The notes under the pieces were generated by a model, which had not been told where the DNA came from, made no database searches, and saw only the letters and a program-made list of their open reading frames with translations. Source: a virus. From it: 64,000 nt of DNA. Positions 11,421 to 59,811 of the stretch are shown here, one piece after another; within the stretch, counting starts at the first letter, position 1, and each line of letters begins with the position of its first letter. The DNA is taken from the IMG/VR virus record IMGVR_UViG_3300005915_001138, positions 62,001-126,000 of that record; one strand, written 5' to 3'. The position numbers were made by a program, and so were the translations under genes.

Positions 11421-11437
11421 TCGAAGAATAAAAAGGA

Positions 11438-11460
11438 CTTAATTCTCATAGAGAATTAAG
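11438..11460. repeat. 10-bp perfect hairpin
   Basis: CTTAATTCTC and GAGAATTAAG flank a 3-nt loop. On the minus strand the stem is followed by TCCTTTTTATT, so it may terminate leftward transcription. It sits in the 11251-11647 intergenic region, which otherwise holds only the promoter-like motifs and candidate small RNA listed here. Confidence 0.45.
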
Positions 11461-11475
11461 AAGAATTCGGCTACC

Positions 11476-11497
11476 TCACTATTTAATATATTTAGTA
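11476..11497 (-). promoter_or_regulatory. motif A promoter-like element
   Basis: On the minus strand: TACTAAATATATTAAATAGTGA, sharing the ATATTAAATAGTGA end with the copies at 35747 and 37548. A weaker relative (ATAATATATTAAATTCGA) lies nearby at about 11532-11553. Confidence 0.45.
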
Positions 11498-11576
11498 GGA
11501 ATCGAATTTCACTTCATATTTAGTATCACATATCGAATTTAATATATTATAGAAATAAAGAAGTAGACGCCCTCAT

Positions 11577-11598
11577 ATAATGAGGACAAAATTGTAAA
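11577..11598 (+). promoter_or_regulatory. motif B copy upstream of the tail tube candidate
   Basis: ATAATGAGGACAAAATTG on the plus strand, about 60 bases before the 268-residue structural gene. TATAAT directly precedes GGACAAA here. Confidence 0.5.
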
Positions 11599-11647
11599 CA
11601 GCAAGAGCTGAGTTTTAACAATAATCAAAAATTTGGAGGATTTAATA

Positions 11648-12451: not shown

Positions 12452-12483
12452 TTTAATTAATTTATTTATTACAATTATTAATG

Positions 12484-12525
12484 CTGGATCCTTGAGGATT
12501 TATTTCCTTGAGGATCCAGTTATAT
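12484..12525 (+). terminator. Rho-independent terminator after the tail tube candidate
   Basis: CTGGATCCTTGAGG (12484-12497) pairs with CCTTGAGGATCCAG (ends 12519) as a 14-bp stem with two G-U pairs and an 8-nt loop, followed by TTATAT. The remaining bases up to 12686 hold a motif B copy and an untranslated leader. Confidence 0.75.
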
Positions 12526-12540
12526 AATATTAACCCTTAA

Positions 12541-12562
12541 AATATATACGGACAAATTTTTG
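12541..12562 (+). promoter_or_regulatory. motif B copy upstream of the gp26-like gene
   Basis: AATATATACGGACAAATTTT on the plus strand, placed between the preceding terminator and the gp26-like gene about 125 bases downstream. Confidence 0.5.
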
Positions 12563-12686
12563 AAACATGAGGGGAATAAGATATTGTTATGTCTTGTTTA
12601 AGCTTATGTAATCAATGGAAGGAAACTTTTAAAATTTAGTGGTGCAAACTGCGCCAAGACAAAAGAAAAATAGGAGAGAGTGTAAT

Positions 12687-43250: not shown

Positions 43251-43997
43251 TTAACCGAATGATATTATTCTATTAGCGTCCATTAGCTGATAGAGATAGT
43301 TGGGATCAATTATTTTATTAATAGCATGATTAAGAAATTCTATAGTATTATATTTTGTATTAAAATATCCATATCGTTTACAATGTCTAGCCAACTTAGG
43401 ATATAGTTTTACTATCGCATTATATTCATCTATCTTCAGTCTGTCTGTAAGTTTCTTTGTCTTCGCTGGGATATCTGTTAAGGTTGGCACTGGTACATTT
43501 CCACCACTATTTGAAGTGTAATAACAACACCGACTGCTACTATGTATAGTAGTTTTAAAGTCTTTAAACATACCGAATACTCTGACTTTACCAGAGACAA
43601 GAGGGATCATTGCATATGTTGAATATTTAGTAGACCCTATTTCAAATGAAGTTCTTACCTCTACTCTATTCTTTAGAGGTCTTTTTCCCTTGAAAAAGGA
43701 TACAGCTATCGATCCATTTTTATCGAGAGCCTGTTCCACAAATGGTACAACTACATCTGATGGTTCTAGAACGATTATGTCTTCTAATCTATTATCCACC
43801 TTCATGTGATATACTGATTTATTTCCTTGATATGCAGGAACATCAACCACACTAATAGATGTTCCTCCCATTAGATTTTTAGAATCTTGTATGTATTTTA
43901 TAAATTCTTTAAATGTTAAATTAGAAATCATAGGAAATTTTCCAGAATCTTGTTCTAGAAATGATTTCGTTATAGATCCTGCTTTCGCTATTGGCAT
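43251..43997 (-). CDS. hypothetical protein overlapping rpoB, 248 aa
   Basis: A soluble alpha/beta protein with a strand-rich middle (GSTKYSTYAMIPLVSGKVRV, FGMFKDFKTTIHSSSRCCYY) and a helical C-terminus. Its start overlaps the rpoB-like stop by ten bases, implying tight stoichiometric coupling. It may be an accessory subunit of the phage polymerase; no cellular subunit is recognisable. Confidence 0.5.
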   Translation of the reverse strand: MPIAKAGSITKSFLEQDSGKFPMISNLTFKEFIKYIQDSKNLMGGTSISVVDVPAYQGNKSVYHMKVDNRLEDIIVLEPSDVVVPFVEQALDKNGSIAVSFFKGKRPLKNRVEVRTSFEIGSTKYSTYAMIPLVSGKVRVFGMFKDFKTTIHSSSRCCYYTSNSGGNVPVPTLTDIPAKTKKLTDRLKIDEYNAIVKLYPKLARHCKRYGYFNTKYNTIEFLNHAINKIIDPNYLYQLMDANRIISFG

Positions 43998-46900
43998 TCT
44001 TCTTCATCCTCTTCTAAATCTACTCCAAGTATCTTGAAGTATGAGCTAAGTAATCTTAATGATTGTGGTCTAATATCCAGTTCATCTGATGATATCAAAT
44101 TCGGATTTTGTAAAATCTCAGATAGTAATCTATTCTTTAGTCCAGGTGAATCTGAATGTACTGTCAATAGATCTCTCAGATAATCCATCGATCCATGTGA
44201 CATAAGTGCCCAGACTTCCATCTCACCTAATCGTTGTCCACCCATTTTACTTTTTCCACCAAGTGGTTGTAACGTCTTCTTACTATATGGTCCAATAGAT
44301 CTAGCAGCCATCTTCTCGCTTGCTCTGTGGACCAATTTTAGAAAGTAAATGTATCCCATTGCTATTGGATTTTTAAGTTCTAATTTAGTTTCAGGATCAA
44401 ATAATTTTGTTTTATATTCTGACCCAGTAAACTTCATTATATTATCTAATTCTTTTGGGTGTATACTTTGAAATGGTGGTTGCATAATATAAAGATTGTT
44501 AATCGCTATCGCTCTACCAACACCCTTAAAGTCTTTCTTATATTCTTTTATTATTTTATTTGTCGCCCAGGCCTTTGGAGTTTTATCTACCAGTGCCATG
44601 AACTCTTTTATCATCTTAACATCATTTCTAATAGACTCTTTCTGAGCCCTTAAGTTCTGTCTGAAGTTATGGAATGCTTCATTCAGATGTAATTCAAATA
44701 ATTGCCCAGCGTTCATTCTAGATATGATGCCTAGTGGATTTAATATTACCTCTAATTTTCTTCCGTCGTCTAGAACCGGCATCTTTTCGTCAGGTATGAT
44801 TCGAGATATAATTCCTTTGTTTCCATGCCGGTTAGCGATCTTATCACCAATGCCTATCTTCTCTTCGTATACAGCATTGACTTTAATATATACTCCAGTT
44901 ACTTTTTGTCCTTTAAACGAATACTTACCTTTTCTACTATTACAATCTAGTCTAGACAATCCATGTAGAGTAATAAATTTTTCTATTTCATCTTCATCCA
45001 TAAATGCACATAGTTTATTTATTAACTGAATAAATCTATCGCCTTGGTATGTCATAAGCTCTTGTATGAATAGATTATATTCTGATACTTTTTTATTCCA
45101 TCCATTTGGATATATTTCTATAGATGTGACCGTACAATTAGTAGGTGAATATTTCTCAAATGGATCTATGTTAATTGCCTCGAATCCATCATCACTATCT
45201 AATGTTTTTATCTTAGCATAGACTTCACCCTGCTTTAACTTCTGCCCGATCTTTGGTATCGGGGAGTATCCGTTATCTCCTAGACTTAATAATATTTGGC
45301 CGGGGTCTATACTGAAACTCAGATCTACAGAGTGAACAGAGACAAGCTTTTTAGATGCTGTTTCACTTAGCACTATACCATCTTCGTAGTTATAACCTTT
45401 CCATATAGCAATACCTGTCGTTAAATTTCTACCTAAAGATAGTTCCCCATCTTTTAAGAATTTAGATTGACATAATATATCACCTTTCTTAAATGTTTCC
45501 CCTTCCTTTTTCATAGGCTCAAGGAAATCTATTGTATTCTGATACAAAGTTCTATAGTATGTTTTAAATACATCCTTCTCTCCGTTATCATATAATACTA
45601 CCATGAATGTAGGATCTAGATGTACAACTTTTCCATTGTCTTTTGCGTTATATAAGAACGTGGTCTTATTCATATAAGATCCTTCGACACCAGTTCTTAT
45701 TAAAGGCTTCTCTGATTTCTTAAGAAGAATCGCCTGCTTAGTTTGGTTACTTGCCATTTGTAATCTGGTCTGGTCATCGTTCTTCATGAACGGAGTAAGT
45801 GTTATCGGAAAACTAGTTACAATTTCTCCATCAGTATCCTTAAACTTACCTAACTCATTAAGCCCTACATTTGGAACCATGTTTAGTATCACACCGCAGC
45901 CGTCTCTATCTGGAGTATCTGCTGGACATATAACTCCGAATTGGCTATCGTCTAACGTTCTCAGATGTGCGGGGACATTATCTTTTTTAAATCCACCAGG
46001 ACCTGTTAACGAGCATTGAATCATAGACGCAATTTCCCCAACAGGATTCATAGTAAAGTTAAAGTGTACGATGTCACTTATGTTGCAACCATCTTCTATT
46101 ATACTTTTAGGTATTTGAAACTTGACCGTCTTATTATTCTTAAGGGTTACTAACATATCGTATATCTTTTTGACGAGTGGAAATAGAATGTACTCGGAGT
46201 ATCTTATTCTCTTATGCTTGATATTAGTATCTGATCGTTCACCCTCTTGCATAGCATTCAACAACTCTAGGATGAGTGATGATGTTTTAAAGAATGGTCT
46301 AGAGAATATGTCTACTTCATATGCTGCTCTGAATGAGAATATAACACTATTCCCTTTTTTACTTTCATCTATATTAGAAGCATAGAAATAAGAACCTAAT
46401 TTATTTACTCTCTCTTCTTGTGTAGTATCTTTCCATATAGTTTTACAAGTACCTAATAGATACTCTAGTTCTGGATTGATGTCTCCTTTGAACTGACTCA
46501 TGAACTCATCTATTTCTTCTTCAGTATGTATAGCAGAAACTAAATCTGCAAGTTGTATTTTCTTACCGAACACAGAAACAACTAGAGGTCGTTTCGATAG
46601 TACTATAGATACACTAAGTGTATTTGTTTTAAGTTTTAATAGATTAGTAGTTCCTTTAGATGCTCTAAATATTATCGGGTCATCTATTAATTGGAAGATA
46701 GGTACCTTTAGATACCCACCTATATAAAAGAACTGACCCTCTATTAATTCTGGTAGTTGTATGATGTATGATATCTCTTTATCTCTTGGGTTCTTGACAG
46801 TTATTTTAAGAGATTTCATAATATGTCGTTTAAGTTCTTCGGCTGATTTACTCTTAAATTTAATCCATTCGGATTTTACAAACTCCCACCCATCAACCAA

Positions 46901-47005
46901 ATTTATCTTTTCAAATAATTCATCTATTAATGATTTAATTCGATCAGGGTTCCATTCAGTTTGACGCCTGTCGAATATAGTAGCTTTCTTAAATCTTGAA
47001 TCCAT
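43988..47005 (-). CDS. rpoB: RNA polymerase beta subunit (cellular-type)
   Basis: Unmistakable RpoB motifs occur in order: FGVICPADTPDRDGCGVI (fork-loop region), AIWKGYNYEDGIVLSE, GDKIANRHGNKGIISRIIPD with the active-site lysine, ILNPLGIISRMNAGQ, and RSIGPYSKKTLQPLGGK leading to MGGQRLGEMEVWALMSHG and a final LLTVHSDSPG. At 1,005 residues it is shorter than E. coli beta (1,342), so N-terminal lobes are reduced. Unlike phiKZ/AR9-type jumbo phages, the subunit is encoded by one unsplit gene. No alpha or sigma gene is visible in the window. Confidence 0.95.
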   Translation of the reverse strand: MDSRFKKATIFDRRQTEWNPDRIKSLIDELFEKINLVDGWEFVKSEWIKFKSKSAEELKRHIMKSLKITVKNPRDKEISYIIQLPELIEGQFFYIGGYLKVPIFQLIDDPIIFRASKGTTNLLKLKTNTLSVSIVLSKRPLVVSVFGKKIQLADLVSAIHTEEEIDEFMSQFKGDINPELEYLLGTCKTIWKDTTQEERVNKLGSYFYASNIDESKKGNSVIFSFRAAYEVDIFSRPFFKTSSLILELLNAMQEGERSDTNIKHKRIRYSEYILFPLVKKIYDMLVTLKNNKTVKFQIPKSIIEDGCNISDIVHFNFTMNPVGEIASMIQCSLTGPGGFKKDNVPAHLRTLDDSQFGVICPADTPDRDGCGVILNMVPNVGLNELGKFKDTDGEIVTSFPITLTPFMKNDDQTRLQMASNQTKQAILLKKSEKPLIRTGVEGSYMNKTTFLYNAKDNGKVVHLDPTFMVVLYDNGEKDVFKTYYRTLYQNTIDFLEPMKKEGETFKKGDILCQSKFLKDGELSLGRNLTTGIAIWKGYNYEDGIVLSETASKKLVSVHSVDLSFSIDPGQILLSLGDNGYSPIPKIGQKLKQGEVYAKIKTLDSDDGFEAINIDPFEKYSPTNCTVTSIEIYPNGWNKKVSEYNLFIQELMTYQGDRFIQLINKLCAFMDEDEIEKFITLHGLSRLDCNSRKGKYSFKGQKVTGVYIKVNAVYEEKIGIGDKIANRHGNKGIISRIIPDEKMPVLDDGRKLEVILNPLGIISRMNAGQLFELHLNEAFHNFRQNLRAQKESIRNDVKMIKEFMALVDKTPKAWATNKIIKEYKKDFKGVGRAIAINNLYIMQPPFQSIHPKELDNIMKFTGSEYKTKLFDPETKLELKNPIAMGYIYFLKLVHRASEKMAARSIGPYSKKTLQPLGGKSKMGGQRLGEMEVWALMSHGSMDYLRDLLTVHSDSPGLKNRLLSEILQNPNLISSDELDIRPQSLRLLSSYFKILGVDLEEDEEECQ

Positions 47006-47616: not shown

Positions 47617-50415
47617 CTATAATCTAAATAGACTCGTTAATGAAGTTCCTACATCTACTCTATCTTTAATCACACCATCTATTATTTTGGATTTAACATT
47701 ACTGAATGCTGCACCAAGTAACCAAGAGGACTCAGAAGGAATCTTAAGTATACTTAACCACTTGTACATCATAGATCGTCTGTCTTTTTGTAAACGCCAT
47801 AGTCCTTTTCTGGTCCACATCATAGCAGATGCTACGACTTCATAGTGAACTAGATGCATAGAACCATACTGTCCAAAGATTTTATAGATCATCATCACCA
47901 TATCTTCTGGCTTGTTGATGTCTCCTAGATCCTCGGGCTTATGGAATAACTTATTCGCAAGGGTTATCCCAGAGATAATATCTTCATTGTCTTGTCCATC
48001 AGCACTACTAGATGCCACACCACTTATATGGAATGTTCTGAGTACTAACTGAGTTGCTCTTTCACATATGGATTGAGTAGCAATTATACCTATTTGTTGA
48101 CTATGTAATATCTTATGAAGATTACCGTAACATGTTTTACATATCTTTTTACTATTACATGTTATAGGTGATCTGATGTTAATTTTCTGTCCAACAATAT
48201 TATCTAATTCTTTTCTAGTAATAAGAACTTTCTCTCCACTACCATTTATATAGTATCTCCATAGTAATGTTCTTGCTAGATTGAATGAAGCTCCTCTATC
48301 AGATTTACCATTCTTTATAACATCTAAATCAATACATATAGTTTCTTCTGTACCACAGTCATCCACTTCTCCTAGTTCCATGAATACAGTGCTGTATATC
48401 ATTTGTCTAGTAAGGTATCCAGTTTCACCTGTAGATAAGGCAGTATCTAGTAGACCCTTTCTAGATCCCCAAGAGCTATTAAAGAATTCTTTTGGATTTA
48501 ATCCAGTCACTAAACTAGATTTTATTACATTATCTTTTCTTATCTTATTAGAAGCATCTGCAACATACCCTCTAGATAATACAAGTTGTTTTACTTGATC
48601 CCAGGATCCTCTAGCACCACTATTAATAAAATCTGATACAGAAAGAGACTCTAGTTTATCACTTACTTCTTTACTTCTCATCTTCGCCATGTCTTTATCG
48701 AAATCACCTTCGAAAGAAGTAGCAATATCTTCTAGATCTTCTCTATATAAATCATCAAGACTCAGAGTATATCCTTCTAGTGTAGAGAGATTGAATCCTA
48801 ATGTTTTAATTTTATCAAACGATTTGATTACTTCATTCGGAGGATAAGATAAAGATATCTTATTGAATATAGACTTTAAGTCTTTTTTATTTAGTGCTTT
48901 ATTTATTATTGGGAAATCTTCTGGCAGACATTTATTAAATAGATATCTTCCTTCTGATAATTTTACTCCCTTTAATTCTCTTTCTTCTCCATCTTCTTTA
49001 GTGGCTGCAAATATTCCTAATATTATATCTTGATTAGGAGCAGGGACTGTACTTATGTCGGTCGGAGAAACTAAGTTATGTTTGATGTGAATTTTATCTC
49101 TGACATCTTTAAAAGATTTTTTAGTTATTGGTATATATACTGCCATCGCGTCACCATCGAAGTCAGCGTTATACGGATGACACACTAATGGATGTAGCTT
49201 AATAGTATTCCCAAGGTGTACCTTAATATTGAACCCTAAAATTCCTAATCTATGTAGGGTTGGTTGTCTATTGAGAACACATAATTTACCAACGCAGAAC
49301 TCAGATACTAATTTAAACAAAGAAGGATCTCTATTCTTAATGCACTCTTCTATAATAGAACACGCTTGATTATATCTTCTACACAATTTTCTATTAATCA
49401 TGTAAGCAACCAACTGAGGTTTGAATATCTCAAGTATCATATAGTATGGTAATACACATTCACTGAGGGATATTTCTGGTTCAGGAGAGATGACTGCTCT
49501 ACCAGAGAAGTCTATTCTTTTTCCTAGGATGTTTGATCTTATTAGTCCTGTCTTCTTTGACAGTTTCTTTAATACAAAATCATACAGTTTTATTGTAGAT
49601 ATCTGTACGTTCCAGAAGTTCGCATGAAATATTTCATCGTCTGTTGACACAGTGAATGGAAGGTTCTTCATGTTATTAGATCTAATTATGATCTGAGAAT
49701 ATAGTGCATTTATTTCATCTGCAACTTGACTCTTCTTATCTGTTTTAGTTAGAGGTCTAAAGTCAGGAGGGATTACTACAATGTTATCTACCTCAACCTT
49801 ATCGAAATGATCATTTATAAAATCGAATATAGGTTTGCCTTTATTCTTTTCTATTAACCATTTAATATAAGTCTTCACTCCTTCTAATCCATCCAAGAGT
49901 TCAGGTTTATTATCTTCTATTTCCTTAACTACTTCTTCTACTTTGGCTTCTTCTGATTCATCAGTATTTTCTGCTTCAAGTTCTTTTTCTTTATCCTTAG
50001 CTTCTTTTGCTTTAGAAACCCTTACTAATTTTTTATCATTCTCTATGTAATATTTATATCTATATGATAACATATCCATAATTATTCTCTTAGCTGACAT
50101 CTTACTATTTGATATCATATAATAAAACAAAGGATTTAAAATTTTAAATGGAAGTTTTACCCTTGCGAATCGTTTCCTTCTGACTTCAGAGGATGAGATT
50201 TCGACACCACATACCTTACATACTTCGCCAGCTCTCATTCTGCTTGCATTACAAGTAGGCTTTCTGAGTGCGCACGAGTAGCTTTTGACAGGACCAAATA
50301 TCTGTTGACTAAATAGTCCTCCCTTAGCAAACTTCCCACTCTCATATATCTTATGAGAATCTATTTCTGGTAAATCTTTTACCCAATTATCTGTGTCAAG
50401 TACTTTTAACTTCAT
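47617..50415 (-). CDS. rpoC: RNA polymerase beta' subunit (cellular-type)
   Basis: The catalytic NADFDGDAM motif is present, preceded by LNRQPTLHRLGILGF and LHPLVCHPY. The N-terminus has GGLFSQQIFGPVK and a VCKVCGVEISSSEVRRKRF zinc ribbon as in RpoC, GKRIDFSGRAVISPEPE follows, and the trigger-loop region reads QIGIIATQSICERATQLVLR. At 932 residues it is much shorter than E. coli beta' (1,407), lacking C-terminal lineage inserts. A lysine/glutamate-rich insert lies near residues 130-165. It overlaps the E2-like gene upstream by 20 bases. Confidence 0.95.
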   Translation of the reverse strand: MKLKVLDTDNWVKDLPEIDSHKIYESGKFAKGGLFSQQIFGPVKSYSCALRKPTCNASRMRAGEVCKVCGVEISSSEVRRKRFARVKLPFKILNPLFYYMISNSKMSAKRIIMDMLSYRYKYYIENDKKLVRVSKAKEAKDKEKELEAENTDESEEAKVEEVVKEIEDNKPELLDGLEGVKTYIKWLIEKNKGKPIFDFINDHFDKVEVDNIVVIPPDFRPLTKTDKKSQVADEINALYSQIIIRSNNMKNLPFTVSTDDEIFHANFWNVQISTIKLYDFVLKKLSKKTGLIRSNILGKRIDFSGRAVISPEPEISLSECVLPYYMILEIFKPQLVAYMINRKLCRRYNQACSIIEECIKNRDPSLFKLVSEFCVGKLCVLNRQPTLHRLGILGFNIKVHLGNTIKLHPLVCHPYNADFDGDAMAVYIPITKKSFKDVRDKIHIKHNLVSPTDISTVPAPNQDIILGIFAATKEDGEERELKGVKLSEGRYLFNKCLPEDFPIINKALNKKDLKSIFNKISLSYPPNEVIKSFDKIKTLGFNLSTLEGYTLSLDDLYREDLEDIATSFEGDFDKDMAKMRSKEVSDKLESLSVSDFINSGARGSWDQVKQLVLSRGYVADASNKIRKDNVIKSSLVTGLNPKEFFNSSWGSRKGLLDTALSTGETGYLTRQMIYSTVFMELGEVDDCGTEETICIDLDVIKNGKSDRGASFNLARTLLWRYYINGSGEKVLITRKELDNIVGQKINIRSPITCNSKKICKTCYGNLHKILHSQQIGIIATQSICERATQLVLRTFHISGVASSSADGQDNEDIISGITLANKLFHKPEDLGDINKPEDMVMMIYKIFGQYGSMHLVHYEVVASAMMWTRKGLWRLQKDRRSMMYKWLSILKIPSESSWLLGAAFSNVKSKIIDGVIKDRVDVGTSLTSLFRL

Positions 50416-51121
50416 TATTAATCCTCTTTATATAATTCATTATTTTTTCTGGTGCGAAATAACAACTTGATAAATTATAAATATGCAACAACTCTATAAT
50501 AGATTCAACCAAATCAACATTTAATTCCCTGAATCGTAGTTCACCAAGACAAAAACTATGGTTCTCTGCGTTAGGATGTTTCCCATCTATATCTACTGAT
50601 GTTAACTCTCCATTTGGATTTGTAATAAATGATATTTTTCCAATTGGATAAACTAAATGACTAGGCAGCATGTGTATTCTACCATCTAGTACACACTTAT
50701 TCGGTCTTATATACTTATGTAACGTTATACCGTGTGAATTTATTTCCGATTCAGGATATTTTATTTTAATTTCCTTCAGACCATCTAGACTTTTATTTAT
50801 ATATCTATCTATTTCATACTTAGCAATCCTAAAGTATATTGGATCGGGTCTATATGCTTTCTCTATATATTCCAACATGTCTTTCAATGCTCGTACAGAA
50901 AATAGTACAAATGTTGTATCTAGATTATCGTCTACAGCAATTATTAAATCATGTACGATTGCAACCGCATGTTTCTTTGTCAGGTGTTTAATAATCTTTT
51001 TCTTATGGATAGCCTCAGCCAAAAACATTTTCGAATTAATTGGCAGTGTGCTCAAAAGATGTTCAATCATTACAGATTCAAATTTTATCAGATTGTTTTT
51101 TATTTTTTTATTAATCTTCAT
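50396..51121 (-). CDS. E2-like ubiquitin-conjugating-type protein 2 (HPN...CLG)
   Basis: The C-terminal third has SFITNPNGELTSVDIDGKHP then NAENHSFCLGELRF: an HPN (H182) nine residues before C191-L-G. This is the order of the E2 family, where HPN supports the oxyanion and the Cys carries the Ub-like thioester (classic form HPN...CL). The N-terminal 110 residues are helical and unassigned. It is next to rpoC-like and downstream of a second E1-like gene. Homology to prokaryotic E2 family D / PRTRC protein B is inferred from motif and context only. Confidence 0.6.
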   Translation of the reverse strand: MKINKKIKNNLIKFESVMIEHLLSTLPINSKMFLAEAIHKKKIIKHLTKKHAVAIVHDLIIAVDDNLDTTFVLFSVRALKDMLEYIEKAYRPDPIYFRIAKYEIDRYINKSLDGLKEIKIKYPESEINSHGITLHKYIRPNKCVLDGRIHMLPSHLVYPIGKISFITNPNGELTSVDIDGKHPNAENHSFCLGELRFRELNVDLVESIIELLHIYNLSSCYFAPEKIMNYIKRINNEVKST

Positions 51122-51136
51122 CCATATATTATTCCT

Positions 51137-51679
51137 TTACTTATCATCCTTTGGTTTAAATTCTACTACATTATCTTCAGTGGCATCTTCAGATGTATCA
51201 GTGGTACCTTCAATAGAGGTGGCAACACCGTCAAGGGCATCAGCAATACCAGAGAGCTTATCGGCTATACCATCATCCTCGAGATCTATTCCCATAGATT
51301 TTGCGAAATGTTGTGCTTCTTCGTCCGAGATATCTTCGGGGGATCCAATCCCTTCCATGACTTTTGCCATATCTTCTTCGCTTACGCCGTCCATTATCGA
51401 TCCAAATAAACTTTGTAATATATTGTCCTGGCCCTCTGCATCATCTTCTTCATATGGGTCGTATGGTTCTCCTAATACATGTCCACATGTGCAACACGCA
51501 ACTGCTGGTTCTGGAACGTGTGCTTCTTGTCCAGAGTCGTTTGCAATATGTGTGATGGGTAATTTTCTAAGTCTTATTCTTTGATCGAATGTAGTATTAC
51601 CACACTTCACACACGTTTCCAACTCAAGCTCTTCTACATTTATGTTAGCATTTCCCTTGCCGCCTATATCTAAAGCCAT
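51137..51679 (-). CDS. zinc-ribbon protein with acidic C-terminus, 180 aa
   Basis: MALDIGGKG at 51679 is chosen as start because AAGGATG has better spacing to it than to ATG 51688. The zinc ribbon is CVKCGNTTFDQ...CCTCGHVLGE, with about 45 residues between knuckles, similar to small transcription-type ribbons. The C-terminal half is strongly acidic (EEDDAEGQDN and later). Located in the polymerase/conjugation gene run, it could be a transcription accessory, but nothing proves this. Confidence 0.6.
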   Translation of the reverse strand: MALDIGGKGNANINVEELELETCVKCGNTTFDQRIRLRKLPITHIANDSGQEAHVPEPAVACCTCGHVLGEPYDPYEEDDAEGQDNILQSLFGSIMDGVSEEDMAKVMEGIGSPEDISDEEAQHFAKSMGIDLEDDGIADKLSGIADALDGVATSIEGTTDTSEDATEDNVVEFKPKDDK

Positions 51680-51690
51680 TAATGTCATCC

Positions 51691-52539
51691 TTATGTTGTA
51701 TGCATATCGCAAGCAATCGCAATACAATTTGCATTTTCTTCTAGTAACTCAATACAAAAGTCTACCCATTCTTTAACGGGTTTGACTCTATAAAAACGAA
51801 GAGAATCTTCTCTTCTATCGTGCCAATTTCCATTTGAATCTAGAATTGCAAATGGGATACAGTCAGTAGGATCGTCCCCATTTTTTAACCGTTCTAATAA
51901 TTCTTGTACAGTTGATAAATTGTCTTCATATTTTTCATACTCTTCACCTTCATTCATGTTCAGAGAATTAATGCCATCGTCTTCTGAGTGTGATCCTATT
52001 ATTAATCCGTTCCACCTCCCACCTATCCTCCACCAATCAAATTTTCCATTCTTATTATAATCACACTTAAGTATACCATCTCCTATACAGTGTTTACAAT
52101 CAGTATCAATGCTATATCTATTAGGGTGATTCTCCCACTCTAGTTCTTTCTTTTTTTCAAATGAATATTTAAAGTCATTTCTTAAATCATTATATAAATC
52201 CATCACTTCATTATAATTAAACTTATTCCCATTATACTTAATGGGTTCTTTTTTCTTTTTACCAATAAATAATCTATGAAGTATACCAGACTCATAAAAG
52301 TCATGCATTTCTTTACTAACATTATTTTTTAAATACACATCTAACTCTTTTTGGAAGTCGTATGATTGATTAATTTTATCCGCTGCATCTGATCCGATGC
52401 ACCAACACTCTCTAAAGAATGGTATTGATTCAAACTCAATATCAAACTTATGTATTTTATTGTTTAATAATTCCTCTACGATTACCTGTGTTGGATTATC
52501 TGGAAGTTGATCGAGTAAAACAAATGTACAAAATAACAT
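51691..52539 (-). CDS. hypothetical protein with CxxCxG pair and WWRIGGRW motif, 282 aa
   Basis: The middle has CKHCIGDGILKCDYNKNGKF followed by DWWRIGGRWNG, a motif I associate with bacterial proteins of unknown function. A C-terminal part has WVDFCIELL. The cysteines may bind zinc. No membrane segments. It lies in the same gapless run as the E1-like and E2-like genes. Confidence 0.5.
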   Translation of the reverse strand: MLFCTFVLLDQLPDNPTQVIVEELLNNKIHKFDIEFESIPFFRECWCIGSDAADKINQSYDFQKELDVYLKNNVSKEMHDFYESGILHRLFIGKKKKEPIKYNGNKFNYNEVMDLYNDLRNDFKYSFEKKKELEWENHPNRYSIDTDCKHCIGDGILKCDYNKNGKFDWWRIGGRWNGLIIGSHSEDDGINSLNMNEGEEYEKYEDNLSTVQELLERLKNGDDPTDCIPFAILDSNGNWHDRREDSLRFYRVKPVKEWVDFCIELLEENANCIAIACDMHTT

Positions 52540-52547
52540 ATTTCTCC

Positions 52548-52808
52548 TTATGCTGAATTAACGATTGGCATTAGATATATTGTAACAAGTTCTTTGTCAT
52601 GATTTATCTTACTTATTGTCGTGTATGATAGATTAGAATTATCATTTTTAATAAACTCCTCTATGCCATTTTTAATATTTAATTCTTTTGATGATCCGTC
52701 AGGATAAACTAATATATGTTTATAATCTGTATATGTATTCGTAGATGCTATCGTTCCCATATCACATGAAAACTTTTCTCTAGGAATCACCTTAGTATTT
52801 ACTGACAT
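52548..52808 (-). CDS. candidate second ubiquitin-like protein, 86 aa
   Basis: After a polar N-terminus the pattern is strand (KHILVYPDG), strand (SKELNI), helix (NGIEEFIKND), strand (SYTTISKI), strand (ELVTIYLMPI) and a short tail VNSA, a possible beta-grasp order. It overlaps the end of the small E1-like gene (ATG within its last codons). There is no terminal Gly-Gly, so conjugation is doubtful. Small size and its place next to an E1-like gene are the main arguments. Confidence 0.35.
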   Translation of the reverse strand: MSVNTKVIPREKFSCDMGTIASTNTYTDYKHILVYPDGSSKELNIKNGIEEFIKNDNSNLSYTTISKINHDKELVTIYLMPIVNSA

Positions 52809-53368
52809 TTTATTATTTCTCCTCCAGTTAATAAATTTACTATATATTCTCCTTCACTATACATATCTTTAAACTCTTGATTAAATATAAATTCTGAAAA
52901 TATAAATGCAAGCTTTGAAACATAATAGTATGATCTTTTTATTACGTATCTTGTAAATATAGAAGTATCATTATCTTTTGGGTTAACAGATACGTATCCA
53001 TAAGGACCATCTGCTGCTAATTTTAAATTAAAATCTGAACTTGAATTAGTACTATCTCTACAGTCAATCATAAAAGAATTCCCATCACATCCAACGTCAG
53101 GATATCTTCCTAATTTTGAAGTGACTTTTATGGTGTCTCCAATTATATTTTTGACCTGATACTCTAAAGCAAGTATTTTTGGACTTCCAATAAACTTCAA
53201 AGCTTCCTTACCGTTCATCATAGTAAACGGTAAGTTTTTATTTTCTAGTATATCATTGTCTATCAGAGTGAGTTCCTCAACTCCTCCGAAGTCAAAGTGA
53301 AAGAGAGCAATAGTAGTGGCTAAGGTACTTCCTAGATTGCCACATCCAACTATTGTTATTCTCTCCAA
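52799..53368 (-). CDS. E1/ThiF-like adenylating domain protein, short form (189 aa)
   Basis: The N-terminal ITIVGCGNLGSTLA nucleotide-binding loop and LIDNDILENKNL (the D...N...[R/K] pattern of ThiF/E1) are clear, followed by MIDCRDSTNS like the conserved 'D-C-x-D' segment of E1 relatives. It lacks the crossover-loop cysteine domain of full E1s. It is distinct from the 331-residue E1-like protein and is followed by a small candidate Ubl and a second E2-like gene, suggesting a parallel sub-pathway. Confidence 0.75.
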   Translation of the reverse strand: MERITIVGCGNLGSTLATTIALFHFDFGGVEELTLIDNDILENKNLPFTMMNGKEALKFIGSPKILALEYQVKNIIGDTIKVTSKLGRYPDVGCDGNSFMIDCRDSTNSSSDFNLKLAADGPYGYVSVNPKDNDTSIFTRYVIKRSYYYVSKLAFIFSEFIFNQEFKDMYSEGEYIVNLLTGGEIIKCQ

Positions 53369-53378: not shown

Positions 53379-55106
53379 CTATTTTTTTACTAATCGATTC
53401 AGTAATCTTTCTTTACCTTCGTCACTTATATTAAGTCTATTAATTAATTCTTCTGGATAAGCAACATACATTTGAGTTGCTTCTCCGTGAAGTAGATCTC
53501 CAGGATCATCGTCAAGTTCGTAGTATTTTCTTGGGTCTTCTAACCCTGCTTGAAGGAATGCTAAATGAGAAAGTATTCCTGACCCACATGCTGGCCAACC
53601 TTTATAGCTACACCCTTCTAGATGCATCCTAGGTCTATCACAACTGATAGTATTGGTAGCAATCATTTCAAATATATCTAACCCATCTAACAGGGTACAT
53701 ATTTCCCGCTTTAATAGATTGCTACAACAAAATAATGGTTCTATTTTAGTCCCTATAATAGATGATAGCACAGCAAATTCTTGAAACCTTCTAACAAATC
53801 TCTCAGTATTATCTGGATAAACTCCTGACTCACTTAGGTTTAGAAATCCTCCAGCAATATATACTTTATCGTAATCTTCTTGTGTAATATATCTCTCTGC
53901 AAGTGCCCCTAAATAAGAAGCAAATATTCCATTTCTAAACGGAGCCCATGCTACTGTAGTTTTTATATAGTTTGGATCTCCTGAGTTGACAGGTACATTC
54001 TTATCTAATAACATACCAAATCCCATCTCTTGCATAGGTTTTTGTATATGCATTACTTTAAGATTATGTAATCCAATTCCGCTCATCTCACACACCCTAC
54101 GGGCTGCCTGAAACTCTGATTGTTCTCCAACATGACCATACATAAAGTGTACAGCAGTCACATCATACCCAGCTAGATGTAGCAGCACAGCAGTAGCAGA
54201 GCTATCCAATCCACCTGAAAGGGAAACAAGAACCTTTTCTTTTCCCGATTTCTTTTTCGTTAATGGATCATAATTATTCGTAATATATCTAGGTGTAAAT
54301 TTTATATCTTCTCGTTGACCAGTTTGAGTATCTATCGATACTATTGTATTCTCTGGTATCTCTTGACAATAATAATCTTCCCATACTTTTGTATTACATC
54401 TAGTTGTATCTTTACCTCTCAGTCTACTTATGACTCTCCATATTGCATCTTCTGAAGACGCGAAGAACATTCCATGCCCGACTACATATCCACAGAACAA
54501 TGGGTTGTGATTACATACGGCATACAATTTGTGTTGATATTTTTGATCAACTAAAATAAATGCAAGACCCCCTACTAAATATTCTACAGCTTTTTTAATG
54601 TCTCCACTATGTAAATAATAGGACCATAGAATTGCTTCACTATCTATAGCTCCACTAGAAATGGATACAAATTTATTCTCTACTTTCTCTCTTAATTCTT
54701 CAACTATATGATTAGATATTCCGCCATTATGAACAAGCTGAAATCCTTCTTCCATTATAGGCTGTAGTTCTAATACACTTGACTCCGCTTCTGTTTCTGG
54801 GATGGCTCTGAAATTAGATAGATGTATATCTCCTACTTGAATGTTCTTACTATCTATTCTAACTACATTCTGGATATCATCTATCATTCTATTTAATCGT
54901 ACTTTGTCTCCCATCTTAACTTCGTAGTTAGGATCTACAACATTAGGATGGGTTCGTCTATGTTGAGAATTTGCTCTTCCATTGGGCTTAATTATACATG
55001 TCCCAAACCCATCCATACCTCGGGCGGGACCCGAACTGAGAAGGCCCATAAGGACCTCCTCAGTCGGTACGGATTCAATCGCCCAATAAGCTGAAATGAA
55101 ACACAT
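53379..55106 (-). CDS. class II glutamine amidotransferase-QueC fusion
   Basis: The start ATG 55106 (overlapping the JAMM gene stop) puts a cysteine at position 2 (MCFISAYW), the N-terminal nucleophile of class II amidotransferases. After about 290 residues, VLVSLSGGLDSSATAVLLHL is the ATP-pyrophosphatase P-loop and FMYGHVGEQSEFQAAR matches QueC's FDYGQRH-like motif. The C-terminus has the cysteine set C...GCSYKGWPACGSGI of QueC. This is the 'Gat-QueC' type reported in phages with 7-deazaguanine DNA modification. QueC makes preQ0. No DpdA/TGT or other Que genes lie in this window, so the target may be DNA or protein. Confidence 0.8.
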   Translation of the reverse strand: MCFISAYWAIESVPTEEVLMGLLSSGPARGMDGFGTCIIKPNGRANSQHRRTHPNVVDPNYEVKMGDKVRLNRMIDDIQNVVRIDSKNIQVGDIHLSNFRAIPETEAESSVLELQPIMEEGFQLVHNGGISNHIVEELREKVENKFVSISSGAIDSEAILWSYYLHSGDIKKAVEYLVGGLAFILVDQKYQHKLYAVCNHNPLFCGYVVGHGMFFASSEDAIWRVISRLRGKDTTRCNTKVWEDYYCQEIPENTIVSIDTQTGQREDIKFTPRYITNNYDPLTKKKSGKEKVLVSLSGGLDSSATAVLLHLAGYDVTAVHFMYGHVGEQSEFQAARRVCEMSGIGLHNLKVMHIQKPMQEMGFGMLLDKNVPVNSGDPNYIKTTVAWAPFRNGIFASYLGALAERYITQEDYDKVYIAGGFLNLSESGVYPDNTERFVRRFQEFAVLSSIIGTKIEPLFCCSNLLKREICTLLDGLDIFEMIATNTISCDRPRMHLEGCSYKGWPACGSGILSHLAFLQAGLEDPRKYYELDDDPGDLLHGEATQMYVAYPEELINRLNISDEGKERLLNRLVKK

Positions 55107-56206
55107 TACTTCCACATCCACGCTGGTATTTTTGCGTACTCGTGGTCAATAGATTCCATATATGCTTCCCATTCTTCGGCGTCCATATCGTTGTACGATT
55201 GTGCGCCTAGAGGTTTTCCGTCATCATCGTCGTCGTCATCGGGGACGCCTGATAATGATTGAAGGTCATCATCTTCGTATGGGTTCCAACCACCTATCCC
55301 ACCGCCTGCGCGGTCTTCGTCGGGATCGAGGTCAGCATCTTCGGCGAACGCAGAACCGCTTCTATTCCCGGTCATCCCCGAAGACGAGTCGTTCGAGCCA
55401 TGACCTTCGGTAGGGTGGAATACACCGCCTTGCCAGTATCCTGGCTTGCCGTTCTGGGTACCCTGGTGTCTCATACCTGCGCCTTGGCTAGAGTGAACGT
55501 TGTGGTTGCCTCTGCCTTGCCAGTTTCCTAGCCCACCAAATTGACTACCACTATAAGCATATGATCTTTTATAAGCATATGATCTTTCTTTTATTTTCTC
55601 TGCATGATTTTCCGGAAGGACTGCTATATGATCCTGCATCGGTATTGGTTTAAGTTTAAGTCTTATTCTTGTTGCACCCATATCTCTGGATCTAGTGTTA
55701 GCAATACCATAATGAAAATCGTGGTTAACCCACAATAAGCTTATTATAAAATTCCTGTTAATATATGATTCATCTGTGGCAGAGAAACTTGTCACTCCAC
55801 CTGGATGTTTGTGTATCACTCCATTGAAGTCTGGATTGTCCTCTTCGTAATCCACATGGGCTCCGGAGACTTCTTGCTGAGGAAGAAAGTATTCGTCTTC
55901 CAATACAAACATATCTCTTTCAACATCCCAGCTACCCTTTACCAGAATGCTCCACTCTACACTGGGATATTCTGCATCTAATCCTCTACATACTTGATAA
56001 ATTGGTTCTGGAATTGCGCAAGGAACTGTTTTACTAGTACTAACGAAATCTATTATTTTTGGATCTTTGGATTCCCACGCGTTCGAAGTCTTTACACCCG
56101 CTCCATAGGCGTGAGTCGGGGCAAGCTTGCTAGCTTTAGGAACCAATCCCGATCCACCCACATCTTTGGGTACACTCTTATCTTTCTTAAGTCTTGTTAT
56201 AGGCAT
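55106..56206 (-). CDS. JAMM/JAB1 isopeptidase-like protein
   Basis: The zinc site is complete: E84 in a strand (SVEWSILVKG), then GVIHKHPGGVTSFSATDE giving H132-x-H134-x7-S142-x2-D145, a perfect JAMM motif. Such enzymes cleave ubiquitin-like tags or mature their precursors. Residues about 195-330 are a Gly/Asn/Gln-rich and then acidic low-complexity linker with a DDDDDDD run, ending in a short conserved-looking tail. Overlapping stop/start (ATG) codons join it to the E1-like gene before and the Gat-QueC gene after. Confidence 0.9.
   Translation of the reverse strand: MPITRLKKDKSVPKDVGGSGLVPKASKLAPTHAYGAGVKTSNAWESKDPKIIDFVSTSKTVPCAIPEPIYQVCRGLDAEYPSVEWSILVKGSWDVERDMFVLEDEYFLPQQEVSGAHVDYEEDNPDFNGVIHKHPGGVTSFSATDESYINRNFIISLLWVNHDFHYGIANTRSRDMGATRIRLKLKPIPMQDHIAVLPENHAEKIKERSYAYKRSYAYSGSQFGGLGNWQGRGNHNVHSSQGAGMRHQGTQNGKPGYWQGGVFHPTEGHGSNDSSSGMTGNRSGSAFAEDADLDPDEDRAGGGIGGWNPYEDDDLQSLSGVPDDDDDDDGKPLGAQSYNDMDAEEWEAYMESIDHEYAKIPAWMWK
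55553..55588. repeat. 18-bp direct tandem repeat inside the JAMM gene
   Basis: ATAAGCATATGATCTTTT is repeated twice in tandem, duplicating the peptide SYAYKR. It could be a recent slippage duplication at the start of the low-complexity linker. Confidence 0.8.
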
Positions 56207-57201
56207 TATGAATCTTTCTCCGTTTCTTTCAATGCGATTTCTACTGCCCTCTCAATAATCTCAGGCGTAAGTTTTTCTTTTATATCATCAAACTGGGCAC
56301 GTAAATAACGAGCCACTATTTCTCTGACAATGCCTTTTCTACTAGATGATACTTCCTTCTGTTGGATCATATCTTTAAGAACTATAGACAATTCTATTCT
56401 ATCTTTTTCTGATGTAGGTGGTTGCACTAGTGCATGACCCATAGATAGCATTTCGAGAAAATCGGTTGAGTTAAAAGTCATAGGATTATTAAATATCCAA
56501 GGCTTCTTGTTCTTATATTCATAATATTTAAACGCTGCTGACACTACTAAGAATGCTGCCATAGAAGCTGGGATCACATGTGATGGAGTCTCTGTATATC
56601 CGCCTTCTCCCCATGATGGGTGACTCTCTGGATCAAAGTCAAGGGTTACAGATATTCCATTATATGCACATCTTAGTATAGCCAACTTATTAAATGAAAA
56701 CTCGGACGCGAGTCTCTTAATCTGATCATGGTCTTGAAAGTCATTGTCTCTACAATCTATTACCAACACAGATTTATCTACACAGTCCTGAAGTAATTTC
56801 TCAGATATTAAATCATTTGCAGTCTCTTCATTAAAGTATCTATTTATTGGAAAGATTGTTGTGTCTAATGAAGAACCAGAGATGATAGATGCTAGAGCAG
56901 ATACTTTTGGTTCTCCTATATGAGAATAATGATAAGGAGTTCTTTGTAAATTGGATGTCTCTATTGTATCAGGATCAATGAGATAAAGATGCTGAATTGT
57001 TCTTATTTTTCCAAGGAAGAAGCTGGTCCAAGAACCTGTTCCCCCACATCCAATTACTATTGCTGCGTTATATAAGTTATAGTCAGTAGTCCCTATGTTT
57101 AATCTAGTCTCTCTGTCGTATTGATTTCCAACCGCATCTCTTACTAACTTATCAGTATATTTGGAAAGCTTCCCTGGAATCTTTTTCTCAGATGGTGGCA
57201 T
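56206..57201 (-). CDS. E1/ThiF-like ubiquitin-activating-type protein (331 aa)
   Basis: AAIVIGCGGTGSW (about residues 46-58) is the E1/ThiF nucleotide loop, LIDPDTIETSNLQR carries the Asp, Asn and Arg of the ATP site, and VIDCRDNDFQDHD follows as in ThiF-family proteins. It is 331 residues, larger than MoeB. The C-terminal helical region could bind the E2. Stop/start overlap (one base) links it to both the JAMM gene and the E2-like gene. Expected reaction: adenylation of the Ubl C-terminus. Confidence 0.88.
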   Translation of the reverse strand: MPPSEKKIPGKLSKYTDKLVRDAVGNQYDRETRLNIGTTDYNLYNAAIVIGCGGTGSWTSFFLGKIRTIQHLYLIDPDTIETSNLQRTPYHYSHIGEPKVSALASIISGSSLDTTIFPINRYFNEETANDLISEKLLQDCVDKSVLVIDCRDNDFQDHDQIKRLASEFSFNKLAILRCAYNGISVTLDFDPESHPSWGEGGYTETPSHVIPASMAAFLVVSAAFKYYEYKNKKPWIFNNPMTFNSTDFLEMLSMGHALVQPPTSEKDRIELSIVLKDMIQQKEVSSSRKGIVREIVARYLRAQFDDIKEKLTPEIIERAVEIALKETEKDS

Positions 57202-58424
57202 TATATTTTCCTTATCTTTTTCTTCTTAGTCTTGTCATAACTCAGAGATTCTTTATCCATTTCACTGAAGCTAAGGGATGACGACAATTGTTTATATGAA
57301 GAATCAAAGTTAATCATTTTAATAGTAGTCTCTGCTCCTATCAATGCATCCATAAACTGTTGTTCATTAAATTTCCCACCTGATCCAATGGTGAGTTCTT
57401 TTGGATGATAGCTACCTAGGCATACTCCGCCGGGCGTTGTTTTACCACCGTTGACATTTGGATGATTACCAACTGCCAAGAATTGAATATGTCTACCAGG
57501 TTTTACACAATTAACAGGTATCATTAATTTCTTTATAGTGTATGGATGTTCCGCTGGAAGAATATATATTGTACCATCGTGGCAACACTTAGATGGTACC
57601 CACTTCGGATGTTTTACAAAATACTCTCCCTCAACTTCATATCCTACTTTACGTAAAACGTTTACAAAAGTAAGGCCAACATTGAATCCATCGTTAAATG
57701 CCTGTGACTTTAACTTATCATTACTAAGTAGATAATCTTTAATTGCTAAACGATAGAATTCATTTCTAGCAAGTAGTATTCTATGAGACATTGGGCTACT
57801 GCTTTCGGGATCGACTAGAGCTGATACCGACTCATCGATAACACGCGTGATCATCTCCTCCGTTATTTTTCTATCAGTTGGTAATGATACTGCTAACTTG
57901 TGCGCAATGGAGTCTGCAGTATCTGATCTTAATGTACCATCTGCTTCCCCTTTTTCTATTTTTGACTTATCATATCTTAGTACTGCCTGTTCTCTAAATT
58001 CAAATATGTCTGCTATTACTGTTTCGAATTCATCTTTACCTAACACATCATAAAAGTGTTGACATGCCACATCGATAAAGAATATTTTACCACTAGTAGA
58101 TATGTAAGCAAAGATTATATCATCAGCACCATAACAAAATAACGCAAATGCATTGTTAAAGTCATTAACTAGAAATGATTGATTGAGTTTTTTCATTGAG
58201 AAGTTCTCTATCAATCTTCTAAATGTTTCGTGATTTACATTAATATTTGTCTTGACTGAATATATATGTTTCCCACTTAATGATATAATTGTCGGAAGAC
58301 CTTCAAATAATTTACCTAACCATTTCTTTTTTTCGAAGTTACAATTATCCAGATACGCTGTAATTTCACACTGAGCATCAGTGAAATATTTCATGACTGA
58401 TACTCTGTATCCACTTGATGGCAT
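57201..58424 (-). CDS. E2-like ubiquitin-conjugating-type protein 1 (HPN...CLG)
   Basis: ATG 58424 is preferred because AAAGGA precedes it. The first ~260 residues are unassigned. The C-terminal domain reads KKLMIPVNCVKPGRHIQFLA, then HPNVNGGKTTPGGVCLGSYH: HPN at H321 and the catalytic-type C335 followed by L-G, the E2 signature and also like prokaryotic E2 family D (PRTRC protein B). A lysine-rich tail ends the protein. It lies between the Ubl-like and E1-like genes as in Bil-type operons. Confidence 0.8.
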   Translation of the reverse strand: MPSSGYRVSVMKYFTDAQCEITAYLDNCNFEKKKWLGKLFEGLPTIISLSGKHIYSVKTNINVNHETFRRLIENFSMKKLNQSFLVNDFNNAFALFCYGADDIIFAYISTSGKIFFIDVACQHFYDVLGKDEFETVIADIFEFREQAVLRYDKSKIEKGEADGTLRSDTADSIAHKLAVSLPTDRKITEEMITRVIDESVSALVDPESSSPMSHRILLARNEFYRLAIKDYLLSNDKLKSQAFNDGFNVGLTFVNVLRKVGYEVEGEYFVKHPKWVPSKCCHDGTIYILPAEHPYTIKKLMIPVNCVKPGRHIQFLAVGNHPNVNGGKTTPGGVCLGSYHPKELTIGSGGKFNEQQFMDALIGAETTIKMINFDSSYKQLSSSLSFSEMDKESLSYDKTKKKKIRKI

Positions 58425-58442
58425 AAATTTTCCTTTCAAGGT

Positions 58443-58467
58443 TAGGGGGTAGCTAGGCTACCCCCTA
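58443..58467 (-). other. strong intercistronic hairpin after the Ubl-like gene
   Basis: TAGGGGGTAGC and GCTACCCCCTA pair over 11 bases with a 3-nt loop between the Ubl stop and the E2-like start. No T-tract follows, so it is probably not a full terminator. It could protect the upstream mRNA or partly attenuate, giving more Ubl than E2/E1. Confidence 0.6.
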
Positions 58468-58474
58468 TTCATTC

Positions 58475-58918
58475 TTATTTTCCAGCCTTGTTGTGTCGTC
58501 TAATGTCTAAGAACAACACAGCAGCCTGAGTATCAATTTCACCGGGCTTAGAAACAGTCTTACCTGTTGCCAGGTCCTCAATGAGTACTACGGAGAATCC
58601 TTTATCATCCTTGAACTTGTTAATAGCAGAGATGACATCTTCCGGGTCTTCCACAACCCATCTGTATTCAGAGTCGCCATTGATTACAAGGACACTCTCG
58701 CCCTTCTCAAGTGTAACTTCTTCATTATTTTCAGGAAGTGTAACTACATTCTTTCCACCTTCTTCTCTAATTTTGTAACCGTATTTTTCACCTACTGCTA
58801 ATGACTTCTTAAATTTTTCTACTTTACCTAGTACTTCGCTCTCGTCGAGCCCTTTACCATCAGATAGTTTACCTTGTACTTTATCTTCTGAAGGTTTTTT
58901 AATTTGGTCTTGGCCCAT
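58475..58918 (-). CDS. ubiquitin-like protein (candidate conjugated modifier), 147 aa
   Basis: Residues 75-147 line up with ubiquitin by eye: strands VLVIN and YRWVVE, a helix in EDPEDVISAINKFKDDKG resembling ubiquitin's VEPSDTIENVKAKIQDKEG, strand FSVVLIED, a GKTV turn, and a final strand AVLFLDIRR followed by a flexible tail HNKAGK. The gly-lys end (G146-K147) suggests maturation by removing one residue to expose a C-terminal glycine, perhaps by the JAMM enzyme. About 70 N-terminal residues are extra. Order Ubl-E2-E1-JAMM in one run is the strongest support. Confidence 0.65.
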   Translation of the reverse strand: MGQDQIKKPSEDKVQGKLSDGKGLDESEVLGKVEKFKKSLAVGEKYGYKIREEGGKNVVTLPENNEEVTLEKGESVLVINGDSEYRWVVEDPEDVISAINKFKDDKGFSVVLIEDLATGKTVSKPGEIDTQAAVLFLDIRRHNKAGK

Positions 58919-58929: not shown

Positions 58930-59811
58930 CTATTGGGATGTGAATAGACTCTTGTACATTGCTGACGTGTATGACTTTAATCTCCAGTGCCGTGTATGAT
59001 CATAATGTTTATGTAGACAATAAGATGCAATTGATAATACCACAAATAAGTTTCTAAAATCACCTACTAAGTTCTCACATAGTGATGAGAATAGTCTCTT
59101 CGCATCTCTTGTAAAAAGGTTTGTTAGAATTTCTATGTATACATTAATTTCATTATCAATACCAATGCTTTTTAAATTCGCTACTACATGATCTACTCGA
59201 CCCTGTAATTCAAATATGTCGTCTTCAATGTTGGCGATTGTACCAGTATGATTAATCCTTTTTGTCAAGTGAGCCAAACAAAGATAGTCTCTATATGATA
59301 CAGATGTTTCACCAACCCCAGCAGTAATATTTAATGAGAAACTGAAGTTTAATGCAGAGTTACCATCGTATGAATTGGCACACTGAACTTCAGCTACTAC
59401 CATTGGGGATGTTATCTCGGGAGATTCTATTCCTGTTACTAAACTAAATACTAGTTTCATAGTAGCATCATCGAATAAATTTATTTCTTGACTAGTTTTT
59501 CTGAACCACACAGATTTGAATGGAGATACAGTTATAGTTGGGTCTCCAACAAGATCTACATTTTGTTCTATTAGTTCAACAACTTTATCTAATTTAACTA
59601 CTACGTAATTTTCAGACAGGACTCGTTTTGATACAGCCCAGGTCCCACCATCTGTTTGACAAAATACATTAAATACTTTTTTAGGATTAGTATCTGGATC
59701 TAATATTTCTTCATAGACATATACTTGTCTTCCATCTGAGTCTGTAAGCTCATGGCTACCAGTTAAGGGAAATCTCCAATTACTTTCTGGGGACTCCGTT
59801 CTTTGCGGCAT
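58930..59811 (-). CDS. DUF932-like protein, 293 aa
   Basis: VAEVQCANSYDGNSALNFSF matches the NSYDGS-x-A hallmark of the DUF932 phage/plasmid family (often an antirestriction-locus neighbour), and FNVFCQTDGGTWAVSKRVL fits its N-terminal part. The C-terminus is helical with LHKHYDHTRHW. No catalytic role is known. It lies directly upstream of the Ubl-like gene in the same run and its start overlaps the Zn-finger gene's end. Confidence 0.5.
   Translation of the reverse strand: MPQRTESPESNWRFPLTGSHELTDSDGRQVYVYEEILDPDTNPKKVFNVFCQTDGGTWAVSKRVLSENYVVVKLDKVVELIEQNVDLVGDPTITVSPFKSVWFRKTSQEINLFDDATMKLVFSLVTGIESPEITSPMVVAEVQCANSYDGNSALNFSFSLNITAGVGETSVSYRDYLCLAHLTKRINHTGTIANIEDDIFELQGRVDHVVANLKSIGIDNEINVYIEILTNLFTRDAKRLFSSLCENLVGDFRNLFVVLSIASYCLHKHYDHTRHWRLKSYTSAMYKSLFTSQ

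Follow-up and report, generated by a model that had tools for sequence, protein, structure and literature searches.

A candidate two-branch ubiquitin-like conjugation pathway encoded beside the RNA polymerase genes in a clade of large phages

Introduction

The window analysed here is a stretch of 64,000 nucleotides (positions 62,001–126,000) of IMGVR_UViG_3300005915_001138, the record of a giant bacterial virus. An initial annotation of this stretch described a cassette of four genes, encoding a ubiquitin-like protein (Ubl), an E2-like conjugating enzyme, an E1-like activating enzyme and a JAMM metalloprotease. Does this virus encode a complete protein-tagging pathway, and what would such a pathway do in a phage? 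In the papers searched, complete prokaryotic Ubl conjugation is known from bacterial operons, for which defence is a main known role, and the phage examples are limited to Ubl and JAB pairs in tail clusters (PMC1779556). No description of a complete phage Ubl pathway was found in the open-licence papers searched; other work may exist. The favoured answer, held with somewhat better than even confidence, is a two-branch phage Ubl conjugation pathway that forms part of a core replication and transcription block in a clade of large phages.

The parent virus record contains 152,423 bases, and the 5 kb compared are identical in a 275,542-base contig. The record encodes a phage terminase, baseplate proteins and a multisubunit RNA polymerase. 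With the exception of the crAss-like phages, the relatives used for comparison are metagenome contigs, some of them redundant. Gene calls in all loci are mechanical open reading frames (ORFs).

Results

The First Gene Set

The first set comprises four genes and one hairpin.

55106..56206, minus strand: JAMM metalloprotease (E84, H132-x-H134-x7-S142-x2-D145)
56206..57201, minus strand: E1-1, ThiF/MoeB-type activating enzyme of 331 amino acids (ThiF E=1.4e-14)
57201..58424, minus strand: E2-1, E2-like conjugating enzyme (HPNV..GGVCLG, Cys335)
58443..58467, minus strand: perfect hairpin, terminator/attenuator-like, between the Ubl1 stop and the E2-1 start
58475..58918, minus strand: Ubl1, candidate ubiquitin-like modifier of 147 amino acids (C-terminus ..IRRHNKAGK)

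The genes are ordered Ubl1-E2-1-E1-1-JAMM, as the initial annotation had placed them, and all four ORFs are found at the positions it gave. The stop/start overlaps it reported for the last three genes are also present, with 1 nucleotide shared between E2-1 and E1-1 and 1 nucleotide between E1-1 and JAMM. When viral contigs are searched with the E1, the same four-gene order is found in L010–L014, L052 and L057, which come from other metagenomes. Identity to these relatives is approximately 17–37%, and the motif residues are invariant. Because contigs this distant repeat the order and retain the motif residues, the first cassette is more than a chance arrangement, and the conservation of individual residues is therefore informative.

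E2-1 can start at the ATG at 58424, which places the catalytic cysteine at C335, or at an in-frame TTG at 58439, which places it at C340. In an alignment of six sequences, H326, P327, N328, V329, V339, C340 and G342 are invariant (TTG numbering); the H, N, C and G remain invariant when ten sequences are aligned. The HPN and C335 of the initial annotation are thus conserved in relatives. E2-1 has no Pfam or NCBIfam match. When a wider E2-1 profile is compared with the PDB, 59 of the 60 best matches are E2 enzymes or E2 fusions. These matches align at HPN..VCL, and the longer ones extend into an N-x-D segment. Despite weak single E-values, this near-exclusive agreement among sequence profiles is unlike chance. 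The HPN and the catalytic cysteine are in the E2 register, and the fold model has a predicted local distance difference test (pLDDT) score of 32. This model and that of Ubl1 (pLDDT 44) are single-sequence models and both are poor.

In PDB comparisons, the E1-1 profile matches ThiF, MoeB, MccB and eukaryotic E1 enzymes and is closest to the first three. Homologues are mostly 200–340 amino acids long. Residues G51, G53, G54, G56, N84, R87, K99 and D152 are present in 34 of 34 distinct relatives and R30 in 32, so the E1/ThiF signature (GxGGxGS, DxD, N..R, K, D and an N-terminal Arg) is retained in 32–34 of the 34. This agrees with the full set of ATP motifs that had been noticed in the single sequence. 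No conserved catalytic cysteine is present among the 34 sequences; just one cysteine, in the DCxD motif (29/34), is shared widely. C178 was considered as the catalytic residue and ruled out, as it is a cysteine in 5 of the 34.

The zinc-site residues of the JAMM protein (E84, H132, H134, S142 and D145) are all invariant in relatives, including the H-x-H-x7-S-x2-D motif that the initial annotation called perfect. The protein matches Prok-JAB at 2.7e-4, which is under the gathering score. Its profile matches only AMSH-type JAMM proteases in the PDB, and these matches are weak (best 0.056).

Near the C-terminus of Ubl1, the motif NKA[A/G] is invariant in seven of seven aligned sequences encoded at the same gene position (window residues N143, K144 and A145). 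The window tail is NKAG followed by a lysine, which is the AGK ending seen initially. The tail is NKAG in L052 and L193 (as YNKAG) and NKAA in L010, L012 and L057; L013 has one additional methionine after NKAA and L014 has 14 additional residues. Variable residues beyond an invariant tail would be explained by a maturing protease. Relatives of Ubl1 carry approximately 80 additional amino acids at the N-terminus. This extension is winged-helix-like by eye, with weak family support, and is absent from the window protein, which has one conserved C-terminal module and no repeat in the alignment.

The last 73 residues of the window Ubl1 plausibly form a beta-grasp fold, although neither the structure model nor profile comparison gave confirmation. 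Pfam and NCBIfam matches to this protein are at chance level, and a Foldseek search with its model was uninformative. Profiles of the window Ubl1 and Ubl2 (the second set, below) gave nothing usable when compared with ubiquitin, with each other, or with the crAss-like and sister-clade Ubl sequences. One window-clade Ubl1 matched Multi_ubiq weakly (E=0.13).

Strong hairpins occur in the gap between Ubl1 and E2 in five of the seven cassettes compared (window, L010, L012, L013 and L014; -21 to -31 kcal/mol) and are absent from L052 and L057. Such a hairpin may let Ubl1 be produced in excess.

The Second Gene Set and the RNA Polymerase Genes

The initial annotation described one set correctly and overlooked another, which is located 2–5 kb downstream at 50396–53368 and adjoins the RNA polymerase genes.

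43988..47005, minus strand: RNA polymerase beta subunit (PHROG beta subunit 2e-51; 26% identity to AR9/PBS1)
47617..50415, minus strand: RNA polymerase beta' subunit, directly downstream of E2-2 (PHROG RNA polymerase subunit matches 1e-35)
50396..51121, minus strand: E2-2, second E2-like protein, HPN..C (HPNAENHSFCLG); overlaps the start of the beta' gene
52548..52808, minus strand: Ubl2, small protein with the tail MPIVNSA
52799..53368, minus strand: E1-2, degenerate ThiF/E1-like protein (profile match to E1-1 99.3%, E=7e-21)

In the window clade, E1-2 lacks the Arg finger and the equivalents of N84 and R87. Ubl2 directly follows E1-2 in six relatives and has the tail P[IVL]xx[STAG]A. The E2-2 and E2-1 profiles match one another (96%, E=4.7e-9; 3.7e-9 with a wider set) with the HPN and the cysteine aligned. 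E1-2 and E2-2 are both present in all seven records with an NKA[A/G] cassette (window, L010, L011, L012, L013, L014 and L052). Within the second Ubl block, a further gene at 51691–52539 carries HPN and C..C.G.G motifs and has a weak phrog_10079 match.

Because E2-2 adjoins the beta' gene, the RNA polymerase was taken as an independent query. This search found 383 relatives, of which the best 80, the nearest by RNA polymerase, were kept; 62 of these have a beta' ORF that could be identified and over 6 kb of sequence upstream of it. Upstream of beta' in these 62 loci, at least two E1-like genes are present in 55, E2-2 in 55, JAMM in 56 and all of them together in 50. Of the 2,122 ORFs in the RNA polymerase loci that are 90 amino acids or longer, 57 carry HPN..C, and all 57 are at cassette E2 positions. 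For 50 of them the end is no more than 1.2 kb upstream of beta'; the remaining seven likewise represent E2-1 or E2-2. The presence of both tagging sets in most of the related viruses examined suggests that protein tagging is central to the biology of these viruses. In a Rhizobium phage whose RNA polymerase is related, no ThiF gene is annotated beside the polymerase.

The Sister Clade

In the sister clade, the gene order is a gene of approximately 850 amino acids, JAMM, E1-1, Ubl1, usually one more gene, E1-2::Ubl2, E2-2 and beta'. In 56 of 56 sequences, E1-2 and Ubl2 form one protein with Ubl2 at the C-terminal end. The Ubl2 tail is commonly PETGAA, which by eye resembles the free window-clade tails PVTGAA and PLTGTA. 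E2-2 is about 110–170 amino acids long, and the approximately 850-amino-acid protein, a candidate E2-1, carries N-I..C-G. In 54 of 56 sequences, E1-1 retains the cysteine of M[ST]CEEL. In E1-2, the R is lost in 54 of 56 and the N is kept in 51. The JAMM HxH..S..D motif is present in 53 of 53. A search with the sister-clade E1-2 matched no named phage.

All 13 sister-clade Ubl1 sequences searched have a Rho_N/SAP-like N-terminal domain (best 3.4e-15). Their beta-grasp region matches ThiS in 12 of 13 (best 3.2e-4) and TGS in 11 of 13. The tail is G-x-KG. It ends exactly there in 32 sequences and continues by one residue (mostly Cys) in 15, by five in three and by nine in one; one sequence has a long tail.

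Elsewhere among the contigs, several loci contain other arrangements of these genes. In L017, a metallo-beta-lactamase-like gene (9298–10176) occurs right after JAMM and is reminiscent of type 6a operons. An E1-like protein in L016 (6413–7774) has an N-terminal extension that resembles a fused Ubl with the end INSYNEAG. Further Ubl/E1/E2/JAMM cassettes with varied orders are present in L066, L131 (an Ignavibacteria metagenome-assembled genome, MAG), L061 and L065; one of these is in a 487-kb bacterial MAG contig.

Comparison with Known Systems

The window cassette resembles bacterial Bil operons in that Ubl, E2, E1 and JAMM are encoded in one operon and the Ubl C-terminus is processed by a protease, a step that is predicted here. 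The initial annotation equated the two gene orders. This is not congruent with the Bil order Ubl-E2-JAB-E1, in which BilC is the deubiquitinase and BilD the E1 (PMC11354881); the window order is Ubl-E2-E1-JAMM, and it occurs in a phage. BilA has two Ubl domains, BilB a CEHH site and BilD an IAD, an AAD and a Cys domain (PMC11354881), whereas the window has one short candidate Ubl of 147 amino acids, an E2 with a conserved HPN upstream of the Cys, and a short ThiF-like E1 without a conserved catalytic Cys. As all four features tested differ (Ubl number, E2 site, E1 architecture and order), membership in Bil was rejected.

The likeness to PRTRC systems that was noted initially is remote. It is more evident in the sister clade, where JAMM matches PRTRC_A at 1.4e-9 and E1-1 matches PRTRC_ThiF at 2.5e-10. 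In bits, these scores fall short of the curated cut-offs, at 37.8 vs 101.8 and 40.1 vs 144.75, respectively. Of the NCBIfam PRTRC models, PRTRC_ThiF alone matches the window, at 0.014 and under its cut-off. No ParB or other PRTRC protein was noticed among the ORFs neighbouring the block, for which no dedicated search was run. PRTRC membership was rejected, since the curated models never reach their cut-offs in either clade.

Operons of the type 6d that Iyer et al. described in 2006 also encode Ubl, JAB, E1 and E2 as separate genes. They differ from the window cassette in an E2 that lacks the usual histidine but has a downstream one, in an alpha-helical partner and in a JAB-N domain (PMC1779556). 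The TAPI and TAPK proteins of lambda are a phage-encoded Ubl and JAB, but they belong to a tail cluster without E1 or E2 (PMC1779556).

E1, E2 and JAMM queries gave only weak matches among named phages, and these pointed to an operon in crAss-like phages (Steigviridae and relatives). This operon has a beta-grasp-like Ubl (tail KIKSG), an E2-like gene, JAMM and ThiF in the replication module. It differs from the window in its Bil-like order Ubl-E2-JAMM-E1 and in showing a single set within the stretch read. It is present in L004, L005, L006 and several of L020–L050, where its genes are annotated as hypothetical, metalloprotease or thiamine biosynthesis protein. Alignments of the window E2 and Ubl with their crAss-like counterparts were misaligned and were not used.

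The eukaryotic pairs SAE1/UBA2 and NAE1/UBA3 likewise combine one active and one degenerate E1-like protein per pathway. Unlike those pairs, E1-2 comes with a Ubl2 and an E2-2 of its own, and an E1 heterodimer is here a prediction.

Discussion

In the proposed pathway, JAMM would trim Ubl1 down to its conserved tail (NKAG in the window, G-x-KG in the sister clade). E1-1 would adenylate this tail using ATP and hand it to C335 of E2-1. As no conserved E1 cysteine is found in the window clade, transfer there would probably be straight from the adenylate to E2-1. E2-1, with no evident E3, would then join Ubl1 to its target proteins, from which JAMM would be able to remove it. Ubl2, E2-2 and the pseudo-E1 E1-2 would form a partner branch, probably sharing E1-1 or joining it in an E1 heterodimer. 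The most likely targets would be the transcription and replication machinery of the phage or the host.

Several observations weigh against this pathway. Single PDB E-values are weak (best E2 0.0017; JAMM 0.056), and the E2-2 profile by itself yields one weak E2 match in the PDB. The fold is confirmed for neither the window Ubl1 nor the window Ubl2, and the approximately 850-amino-acid E2-1 of the sister clade is linked weakly to E2. The equivalence of window and sister Ubl1 rests on position and tail, because their profiles do not match each other. Targets are predicted from gene neighbourhood, which is no proof of a target, and conjugation itself is inferred from sequence.

The best-surviving alternative, which is nevertheless unlikely, is counter-defence or host takeover by the same biochemistry. 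The cassette would tag host defence proteins or the host RNA polymerase, or JAMM would strip host tags (Bil, CBASS Cap2) from phage proteins. Bacterial Ubl systems do function in anti-phage defence (PMC10097602, PMC11354881), and the adjoining Gat-QueC gene (described below) would fit phage DNA protection. The cassette is not sporadic, however; it is conserved clade-wide beside the RNA polymerase, and SbcD/SbcC-like recombination genes are near it in several relatives (L010, L012, L013 and L057). A core role, in transcription or replication, is for this reason more likely than an accessory weapon, and the initial reading of the cassette as a tag or counter-tag in phage-host conflict is weakened. 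The full forward pathway is present rather than JAMM alone, and of the PADLOC families only generic E1-E2 models matched the cassette, within its E1 part.

A second alternative, more doubtful still, is sulfur transfer. E1 and Ubl would act as ThiF/ThiS or MoeB/MoaD to supply sulfur for nucleotide or tRNA modification, with JAMM processing the carrier. The profile affinity of E1-1 to ThiF, MoeB and MccB, the ThiS-like Ubl1 of the sister clade and the position of Gat-QueC between both sets are consistent with this, as is the missing catalytic Cys of window-clade E1-1. MoeB can lack a catalytic Cys. Against this, E2-like proteins are not known to take part in sulfur transfer, and the block encodes two of them with a conserved HPN..C. 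No rhodanese or sulfurtransferase was noticed there, and Gat-QueC is absent from the sister clade in the stretches read. Tagging is the more likely function, because the E2 cysteines are conserved and JAMM is present. A role in virion assembly, as proposed for TAPI/TAPK, is very improbable. A Ubl and JAB pair is known from lambdoid tail clusters, but those clusters lack E1 and E2 (PMC1779556) and the present block sits among polymerase and recombination genes.

A stronger form of the conjugation pathway is less likely than not and is put forward tentatively. Two coupled Ubl cascades would be central to infection throughout this clade of giant phages, where reversible covalent tagging would regulate the phage-encoded multisubunit RNA polymerase or the phage replisome, with a modifier that often carries a nucleic-acid-binding-like domain (Rho_N/SAP-like or winged-helix-like). 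If true, this would be a viral counterpart to ubiquitin and SUMO control over transcription and replication. A complete, doubled and conserved pathway linked to the RNA polymerase would show that protein tagging serves the core biology of bacterial viruses themselves. The cassette provides defined genes, tails and cysteines, and it may bear on the origin of eukaryote-like E2 enzymes (HPN..C) and of pseudo-E1 partners.

Neighbouring Genes

Two further genes adjoin the sets.

53379..55121, minus strand: Gat-QueC fusion, between both Ubl sets (QueC E=2.5e-25; GATase_7 2.5e-9)
58930..59811, minus strand: 293-amino-acid gene of no assigned family, directly upstream of Ubl1

Gat-QueC occurs at the same place in L193. 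By sequence, a QueD-like gene is present in L147 (13358–13795) and a FolE-like gene in L185 (6818–7414). Taken together, these genes suggest 7-deazaguanine modification of DNA, which is probably the role of Gat-QueC. Genes that by eye, unscored, look like the 293-amino-acid gene occupy the same place in L052 (2331–3395) and L193 (1100–2074). L147 also contains a helicase gene that is apparently intein-bearing (10854–13349). Elsewhere in the window, the minus strand at 25084–32403 carries a very long ORF of 2439 amino acids.

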